From positions 1-63,538 of the forward strand of contig JAMONP010000102.1 of NCBI GenBank assembly GCA_027065695.1: DNA of 63,538 nucleotides, given 5' to 3'. The first letter of the stretch is position 1; every line of letters begins with the position of its first letter. This document shows positions 21,444 to 22,877 of this stretch, one piece after another. The stretch comes from Desulfuromonadales bacterium (GTDB taxonomy: Bacteria; Desulfobacterota; Desulfuromonadia; Desulfuromonadales; BM103). Both the position numbers and the translations under genes were made by a program. The notes below the pieces were generated by a model. The model searched no databases. It had not been told where the DNA came from and saw nothing but the letters and a program-made list of their open reading frames with translations.

Positions 21444-21508
21444 AATAGATCTTGTGTTTCCCTTATCGTTCCTATATATTGAAACTTAGATATATTTGAG
21501 AGGATAAT

Positions 21509-21661
21509 ATGAAGTCCCTACTGATTTTTATCGGCGTTATTGCCGTATGGTACATTCTCAATCGCTGGATACTGCCACGCTTCGGAGTTGAGACCTGACT
21601 CTCAGGCACCTGCGAACTCCCCGTGCGGGAGGATGAAGAGACCAAAAAGATAGAAAAATAA
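21509..21661 (+). CDS. Candidate 50-residue selenoprotein with one membrane helix (in-frame UGA)
   Basis: An ATG at 21509 with GAGAGG upstream opens a 29-codon frame ending at TGA 21596-21598. It encodes a single membrane helix (MKSLLIFIGVIAVWYILNRW) followed by ILPRFGVET. The frame continues in register past the TGA for 20 codons (LSGTCELPVREDEETKKIEK) to a TAA at 21659-21661. A perfect 11-bp terminator begins 22 bases later, so the second part looks like real gene. A 5-bp hairpin (CTCCC-CGTGC-GGGAG, 21617-21631) starts 18 bases after the TGA, with G as second base of the loop, as in bacterial SECIS elements. Reading TGA as selenocysteine would give a U-x4-C pair just outside the membrane. 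Alternatives are a nonsense mutation, or a real 29-residue peptide. Confidence 0.45.
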
Positions 21662-21683: not shown

Positions 21684-21714
21684 AACGCCTCGGCCCATAA
21701 GCCGAGGCGTTTTT
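21684..21714. terminator. Bidirectional terminator
   Basis: AACGCCTCGGC pairs with GCCGAGGCGTT (11 bp) around CCATAA. It is followed by TTTT on the plus strand and by CATTTTTTG on the minus strand. It serves the plus-strand candidate selenoprotein and the minus-strand zinc-ribbon gene. Confidence 0.85.
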
Positions 21715-21752: not shown

Positions 21753-22082
21753 CTAACGCAGGCTGGTCGCACAGCGTGGGCAGGTAAACATACTGGTGGA
21801 AGGAACCTTGTGGCCGCAAGTAGGACAATTGAACCAGTAGCGACAATATTTACATTGGGGATCGGAAAGACCCTGCTTCTTTTTACACTTGGGACACTTG
21901 CGATACATCTTACGGTTGGTGATGTAATCTTCAAAGATCAGGCTGCATTTTGCACAGACTTTGGCATCACGACGATGATTGGGAGCCTCACAGCGCGGAG
22001 CCGGACAGACAAACACCGTATGACAGGAATCACACCAGTTCTTACCGCGAGTCATCTCTCTACAAACCGGACACTTTTCCAT
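21753..22082 (-). CDS. Multi-zinc-ribbon protein
   Basis: This 109-residue protein is almost all zinc-binding pairs: CPVC, CDSC, CPAPRC, CAKC, CPKC, CKYC, CPTC and CPRC. That is 16 cysteines, enough for about four zinc ribbons, joined by basic segments (KCPKCKKKQ). There is no enzyme motif. Such proteins may bind nucleic acid or hold protein partners, but I cannot name a family. It stands between rubrerythrin and a convergent terminator. Confidence 0.6.
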   Translation of the reverse strand: MEKCPVCREMTRGKNWCDSCHTVFVCPAPRCEAPNHRRDAKVCAKCSLIFEDYITNRKMYRKCPKCKKKQGLSDPQCKYCRYWFNCPTCGHKVPSTSMFTCPRCATSLR

Positions 22083-22248: not shown

Positions 22249-22758
22249 TCAGTCGACCTTGAAGAATGCCACCGGCCCAGCCTGACAGACAGAGCAGGGA
22301 CCGTGCGGTTCCCCTTCTACAGTGTTACCGCAAACTTTGCAAACATAGTAATCAACATCCTGATTACTGCCAAGGTTATCAAGAGCCGTCTGGTAAAGCT
22401 CTGCATGAACTTTCTCAACCGTGTTGGCCAAGGAGAAGCTGCGCAGGGCTGCATCAAAACCTTCGCTACCAGCCTCTTCGATCATCTGCGGGTACATGCT
22501 GGTAAATTCAAAGGTCTCGCCATCGACGGCTTCCTGTAGGTTTTCCGCCGTATCTTTGATCCCACCCAAGGCCCGCAAATGGGCGTGGGCATGCACTGTT
22601 TCTGCAGCGGCAGCGGCACGAAACAGTTTGGCAACCTGCTTATGTCCTTCAGCATCAGCTTTGTTGGCAAAAGCCAGGTACTTGCGGTTGGCCTGGGATT
22701 CTCCAGCAAACGCCTCCAGCAGGTTGTTTTCAGTTTTACTTCCCTTCAATTCAGTCAT
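22249..22758 (-). CDS. rbr: Rubrerythrin
   Basis: This is a 169-residue protein from the ATG at 22758, chosen for AGGAGAGAATT upstream; the frame is open 27 codons further. The N-terminal ferritin-like four-helix domain has the di-iron ligands in AFAGESQANRKYL, ETVHAHAHL and NTVEKVHAELYQ. The C-terminal rubredoxin-like domain has CKVCGNTVEGEPHGPCSVC. Rubrerythrin reduces hydrogen peroxide in anaerobes using electrons from NAD(P)H through rubredoxin. A strong promoter and a perfect palindrome precede it. Confidence 0.95.
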   Translation of the reverse strand: MTELKGSKTENNLLEAFAGESQANRKYLAFANKADAEGHKQVAKLFRAAAAAETVHAHAHLRALGGIKDTAENLQEAVDGETFEFTSMYPQMIEEAGSEGFDAALRSFSLANTVEKVHAELYQTALDNLGSNQDVDYYVCKVCGNTVEGEPHGPCSVCQAGPVAFFKVD

Positions 22759-22780
22759 AATTCTCTCCTTAGTTATGAAA

Positions 22781-22795
22781 ATGTTTGACAAACAT
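22781..22795. promoter_or_regulatory. Palindromic operator candidate in the rubrerythrin leader
   Basis: ATGTTTGACAAACAT is a perfect 15-bp palindrome (7+1+7). It lies between the predicted -10 and the rubrerythrin start codon, a few bases past the predicted transcription start. The regulator is unknown. Confidence 0.5.
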
Positions 22796-22807
22796 AAAAG
22801 CAGATCA

Positions 22808-22835
22808 ATATTATCGGTCTGGTTGATCATGTCAA
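22808..22835 (-). promoter_or_regulatory. Probable rubrerythrin promoter
   Basis: On the minus strand TTGACA (22830-22835), a 16-base spacer, and TAATAT (22808-22813), close to the sigma-70 consensus. Confidence 0.55.
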
Positions 22836-22877
22836 CCACACATGAACTCTTTTCTGCTGTTTACCAGGAGCAACCAA

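Follow-up and report, generated by a model that had tools for sequence, protein, structure and literature searches.

We propose that the locus at the centre of this work encodes a very small selenoprotein, in which an internal UGA is read as selenocysteine (Sec), and that it belongs to a conserved family. We consider this reading very likely; no protein or expression data are available. The computation supports the family, the conservation of the UGA, a SECIS-type element downstream of it and a link to selA. Sec insertion itself, the topology and a redox role are inferred only. The family as a whole is likely to consist of Sec-obligate microproteins, mostly of ~50 residues, that are ancient or widely transferred across several phyla, with no Cys form found. 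The gene is carried by many anaerobes.

The features of the locus are collected in Table 1, with positions counted in the window, i.e., the whole 63,538-nucleotide stretch of DNA that was analysed. A sequence-only reading had described a 29-codon membrane-helix ORF that ends at a TGA and stays open for 20 more codons, a 5-bp hairpin 18 nt past the UGA with G as second loop base, and a perfect 11-bp terminator 22 bases past the final stop; all of this held on the sequence. Of the 79 members found in the order, 70 have GGAG, GAGG or AGGA no more than 20 nt away from the chosen start.

Table 1. Features of the locus, in window positions
Feature	Positions	Strand	Basis and remarks
Ribosome binding site GAGAGGA	21498-21504	+	5′ of ATG; sequence
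Proposed selenoprotein CDS	21509-21661	+	50 residues with UGA as Sec, MKSLLIFIGVIAVWYILNRWILPRFGVET-U-LSGTCELPVREDEETKKIEK; ATG 21509, 29 codons, TGA, 20 codons (LSGTCELPVREDEETKKIEK), TAA 21659-21661; homologues
Predicted single membrane helix, residues 2-24	21512-21580	+	AlphaFold2; charge favours N-out, C-in
Putative Sec UGA codon, residue 30	21596-21598	+	TGA in all copies read
Putative partner Cys35	21611-21613	+	Near-invariant
bSECIS-type apical hairpin CUCCC-CGUGC-GGGAG	21617-21631	+	Nt 19-33 downstream of TGA; overlaps LPVRE codons; conserved, compensatory change
Intrinsic terminator, probably bidirectional	21684-21711		Perfect 11-bp stem; shared with convergent ORF 21753-22082; sequence

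Taken alone, the locus does not rise above chance, neither for its 20-codon extension nor for its hairpin. By simple arithmetic, (61/64)^20, about 38% of random frames are open over 20 codons, and single-sequence folds downstream of the UGA were not significant against shuffles (z = -0.21 and -0.13). A longer fold reached z = -4.0 and is not used as evidence since the stretch includes the terminator. The case beyond chance rests on comparison with homologues. An Rfam scan of 1401 bases gave six matches, all under the gathering score, and, judged by eye, no other ORF extended past a UGA, be it in the window or in 20 loci of the same genome, resembled a known selenoprotein. The convergent ORF (21753-22082, minus strand) is zinc-ribbon-like and has a weak, sub-cut-off NCBIfam match to a rubrerythrin-like domain; beyond it lies an ORF (22249-22839, minus strand) that we take to be rubrerythrin-like.

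Homologues and the UGA position

The 50-residue query was searched against 98 genomes, comprising its own and those of relatives up to the order. Matches at E <= 1 were found in 82 of them, and 79 of the 98 (own genome included) matched at E <= 3.1e-7 with a TGA inside; three genomes with E of 0.08-0.14 were counted as lacking the gene. Each of the 79 members was inspected, and the TGA stands at the same place in all of them, with Cys at +5 from Sec in 78 and at +4 in the remaining one. A profile search of the phylum matched 173 of 395 genomes at E <= 0.01. Of these matches, 164 (173 minus 9) lie outside the order; the weakest were not covered, and the 81 copies that we read all carry TGA at the aligned position. 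Some of these copies have Y, F, V, I or H in place of W20, and in some the Cys stands six or more residues past Sec. Finally, a species-wide scan of 84,980 genomes, using a peptide pattern that left out the UGA codon, returned 197 stretches, 191 of them relatives. Among the 80 of these 191 loci that were read, TGA is present in all and Cys at +5 in 79. The order members and the scan loci are partly overlapping sets.

In none of the copies read (79 in the order, 81 in the phylum, 80 from the scan) is the Sec position occupied by Cys, TAA or TAG. An aligned Cys or UGA in homologues had been expected in the sequence-only reading: the UGA is aligned in every copy read, and the Cys form was not found. 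The Cys hits of a loose motif scan (4/174) were rejected as unrelated frames and do not represent Cys homologues.

By their deposited labels, the scan loci come from Planctomycetota (with Rhodopirellula, Singulisphaera and Isosphaeraceae), Acidobacteria, Spirochaetes, Syntrophobacteraceae, Desulfarculales and one Verrucomicrobiia MAG; the occurrence in Verrucomicrobia is this single low-coverage MAG (L171). Malonomonas, Desulfuromusa and Geothermobacter also carry the gene according to the scan. A copy labelled Chloroflexi (L189:4001-4141) shares 98.6% DNA identity over 141 bases with one from Desulfuromonadaceae (L190:2776-2916). The record is therefore probably mis-binned, and we do not claim an occurrence in Chloroflexi. 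A plasmid search gave no match, and 14 pattern stretches in viral contigs included no relative.

Some distant members differ in the spacing between Sec and Cys (e.g., L260 and L266). In one copy, from Candidatus Polarisedimenticola (L196:4001-4165), the UGA is kept within UMAAPHEV and no Cys follows within 12 residues past Sec, so the second Cys may be dispensable in some members. Genomes of one genus (g66) have two or three matches each (L242, L252 and L259 in G114, G188 and G152; also G217 and G244), which are possible paralogues.

In a 55-sequence alignment of the order, W20, P23, G26, residue 30 and C35 are invariant. W20, P23 and G26 are likewise invariant in the second alignment, which is partly by construction because the motif scan accepted only stretches with W20, P23 and a small amino acid at position 26. 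Downstream of the UGA, the reading frame and the motif (the Cys, LPVR[KE] and variants) are kept down to 33% identity with the window protein. This supports the claim that the post-UGA part is gene-like and not spacer; homologues that ended at the UGA without downstream conservation would have refuted it, and instead the TGA and the tail are both conserved.

The reading as a single-pass protein of ~50 residues with a U-x4-C pair is likewise supported, Sec insertion and topology remaining inferences. AlphaFold2, run on a diverse alignment, predicts one helix (residues 2-24; mean pLDDT 75, pTM 0.43) and a low-confidence tail without fold or secondary structure; no thioredoxin-like fold is predicted, and there are no sequence relatives in the PDB at E <= 1. 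Over the 55 sequences, the net charge averages -0.67 ahead of the hydrophobic stretch and +1.98 over the 10 residues that begin two positions before W20, around the C-terminal end of that stretch. Positive charge tends to mark the inner side of membrane proteins (the positive-inside rule), and on this basis we infer that Sec lies near the membrane on the cytoplasmic side. No constant gene neighbour was found, the largest neighbour group being present in 34 of 168 loci. A group of 10 loci (e.g., L263) has, upstream on the same strand, what we take to be an FmdB-like zinc-ribbon ORF.

The RNA element downstream of the UGA

Most order members present a hairpin at a constant place past the UGA. 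We scored it within the limits published for bSECIS elements, namely a loop 16-37 nt after the UGA and G within the first two loop positions (PMC13188914). Scoring covered motif-captured members only, and 8 of 170 were dropped for N, truncated or duplicate downstream sequence. In the 162 distinct members that remained, the best simple hairpin averages -7.55 kcal/mol, against a mean of -2.15 (sd 0.20) kcal/mol in 60 codon resamplings that preserve the protein. A value of -7.5 kcal/mol or lower is reached by 84 of the 162 members, against a mean of 10.4 and a maximum of 16 in the resampled sets, and the loop starts 23 or 24 nt past the UGA in 93. The other 78 stay above -7.5 kcal/mol with this simple hairpin scorer, and no hairpin is seen in 5. 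With these proportions, a bSECIS stem-loop in the published geometry is present downstream of the family's UGA.

The helix is also marked by compensatory change. The protein motif C-x-[LP]P[VG] picks 65 of the 162 members, and in 63 of the 65 the wobble base of the Leu codon complements the base of the Glu/Lys codon. Between the third base of codon 7 and the first base of codon 11 (Glu, Lys, one Asp), both counted from the UGA onwards, the combinations are C-G in 25, T-A in 38, C-A in 1 and T-G in 1, with a Fisher p = 1e-15 that is uncorrected for relatedness. After removal of one exact duplicate (n=64), the corresponding pair at columns 24/34 (U-A/C-G) shows a change on both sides in 25 sequences. 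Over the helix, cells with both sides changed number 45 against 18.5 in shuffles, and the covariation score is 0.224 against 0.116, neither value being attained in any of 500 shuffles. Further pair types number 7 against 5.4 (14/500 as high). The number of pairs with a double change, 3, shows no excess over the shuffled mean of 3.0. The innermost pair is unpaired in 39 of the 64 and the outermost in 16. Sliding the register by -1 gives a covariation of 0.249 against 0.224, but only 65.8% of cells are paired against 85.7% in register. RNAalifold recovers five pairs of the same helix, two of them with compensatory change, and its covariation term is just -0.4 kcal/mol. The hairpin described as SECIS-like in the sequence-only reading is thus supported as a bSECIS-type hairpin, conserved at the predicted spacing.

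Within the window's own family (19 genomes), synonymous divergence (pS) falls from 0.61 before the UGA to 0.33 after it, as expected for an RNA element embedded in coding sequence. Over the same boundary pN/pS rises from 0.24 to 0.63, which indicates that, when set against the constrained synonymous sites, the protein sequence of the tail is conserved less strictly.

Genes for selenocysteine use

The presence of the small gene follows selA. In the order, 76 of the 79 genomes with the gene have a selA match, as do 9 of the 19 without it (p = 1.4e-6). Counting only matches over the curated cut-off, under which those of G066 and G095 fall, the figures are 74/79 and 9/19 (p = 1.2e-5). By hand tally, the phylum has selA in 165 of 173 genomes with the gene and in 189 of 222 without it (p = 8e-4). 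A further 25 genomes were reached through their loci, and 18 of these carry labels of other phyla, counting the doubtful Chloroflexi record; selA is present in 24 of the 25. The gene is present without a selA match in eight phylum genomes and three order genomes.

Four related genomes, rated 99-100% complete (G042, G055, G077 and G089), have neither selA nor the small gene, and relatives of the same family keep both. In these four, Sec use and the gene could have been lost together.

The window's own genome has tRNA-Sec (selC), adjoining a YedF gene (TIGR03527, 201 bits against a cut-off of 110). In its assembly, made of 108 contigs and rated 99.95% complete, no match over cut-off was found for selA, selB or selD, and the selAB region of a relative, used as DNA query against this genome, gave two short, uninformative matches. 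A genome without selB or selC would have spoken against the sequence-only reading, and this point is half answered, with selC present and selB not found. In 4/4 same-genus genomes examined (L299, L300, L302 and L303), selA, selB and a SelD ORF (TIGR00476, 347-355 bits) are contiguous. Since the three genes form one cluster in relatives, a single assembly gap or a single recent deletion would explain their absence. Both are possible, and we are not able to decide between them.

Interpretation and relation to known selenoproteins

We hypothesize that the UGA would be decoded by SelB and tRNA-Sec, directed by the downstream hairpin, and that the product would consist of one membrane helix at the N-terminus with a short tail after it. 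Sec30 and the near-invariant Cys35 would then lie at the surface of the membrane, probably facing the cytoplasm. The pairing of an invariant Sec with a near-invariant Cys at +5 suggests, by inference, a selenenyl-sulfide redox pair, which most likely would cycle between the selenol/thiol and selenenyl-sulfide states. The protein may relay electrons or thiols while tethered to the membrane, and it could be a small subunit, or a partner, of a membrane redox enzyme, none of which has been identified. Alternatively, the Sec/Cys pair could bind a metal or metalloid, or relay selenium or sulfur, instead of undergoing redox chemistry. The tail is short, charged and without predicted fold, and there is no constant gene neighbour, which leaves room for such a role; we consider it unlikely, with no direct evidence either way.

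Other explanations concern the UGA itself. It could be an ordinary stop, closing a 29-residue membrane peptide, with the downstream conservation being that of an RNA leader or regulatory hairpin. A 29-codon ORF is by itself a plausible small membrane protein, selA, selB and selD are missing from its own assembly, and the single-sequence folds are not significant. However, such a stop would permit TAA or TAG, yet TGA is never replaced in the copies read; the downstream frame and protein motif are kept at large divergence; and the gene's presence follows selA. We therefore regard a plain stop as very unlikely. The same degree of doubt applies to selenium-free read-through, whether by a near-cognate tRNA (e.g., Trp), local recoding or a code change. 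A hairpin 3′ of a stop can promote read-through in other systems, and this speaks for the possibility. Against it, 19 of the 79 order members themselves end in TGA, as do other ORFs in the window, so that there is no general code change; moreover, the element fits the published bSECIS limits (PMC13188914), the Cys at +5 is near-invariant and, again, the gene follows selA.

It is also conceivable that the family is a selenoprotein elsewhere and that the strain of the window recently lost its Sec machinery, its copy now ending at the UGA. The absence of selA, selB and selD from a nearly complete assembly is in favour of this, as are the four related genomes without gene and selA. We consider such a loss unlikely: tRNA-Sec, YedF, the reading frame, the second Cys and the hairpin are all intact, and for genes that form one cluster in the same genus, one gap among 108 contigs suffices. 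The reading of the locus as a selenoprotein gene remains the one we prefer.

The U-x4-C layout had not been matched to a named family, and this held, there being no meaningful match in Pfam or NCBIfam. Pfam gave weak matches only, 10.7 bits against a cut-off of 25 for the window protein (Arabinose_trans) and weak hits in 18 of 55 members (best E = 0.011). With NCBIfam release 20.0 (hmmscan), ATP synthase B' was weakly matched in 8 of 55 members at E <= 1 (best E 0.019) and in 3 of 64 at E <= 0.1; ATP synthase B-type and one MFS model were the sole NCBIfam matches, and we do not regard them as meaningful. A 2026 table of 119 bacterial selenoprotein families and subfamilies (PMC13188914, Table 1) contains, by name or motif, no single-helix entry of ~50 residues with U-x4-C, some of its entries being given without motif. 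No description of the small family was found in the open-access literature searched, supplements being outside the scope. Other selenoproteins are given for three Geobacter species and Desulfuromonas acetoxidans (PMC1794560), and 13 known and 0 new selenoprotein genes are listed for Desulfuromonas soudanensis WTL (PMC12013277). It is likely, then, that this is an undescribed selenoprotein family.

All known selenoproteins now seem to have Cys homologues, and the method of the same study may miss those that do not (PMC12013277). The absence of a Cys homologue leaves a usual supporting sign unmet, but it is not a requirement for a selenoprotein. Being present in 173 of 395 sampled phylum genomes, the family could rank among the commoner selenoproteins of these bacteria. 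That no Cys form has turned up so far suggests that selenoproteome counts are too low where they depend on homology to Cys forms and on long ORFs. It also makes the family well suited for asking why some proteins cannot replace selenium, and the protein is small enough for direct chemical study.

Among described bacterial families, TsoA (LULAxC, NF045695) and TsoC (NEPxGxxU, NF045708) have short Sec motifs that look superficially alike as strings in that table. They differ from the PxxGxxTU-x4-C of the small family in having U-x3-C and PxGxxU, respectively, and their models are absent from the NCBIfam scans of 55 and 64 members. In eukaryotes, SELENOK and SELENOS are small proteins that cross the membrane once and have their Sec in a short flexible tail, an arrangement that the small family would share. 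Both are longer, have Sec close to the C-terminus and a SECIS in the 3′ UTR, and no sequence relation to them has been shown. Compared with bSECIS-decoded selenoproteins in general, the small family differs in that no Cys homologue was found for it, and it shares with them the UGA followed by a stem-loop at 16-37 nt with G in the first two loop positions, the closeness of Sec to a Cys and the co-occurrence with selA.
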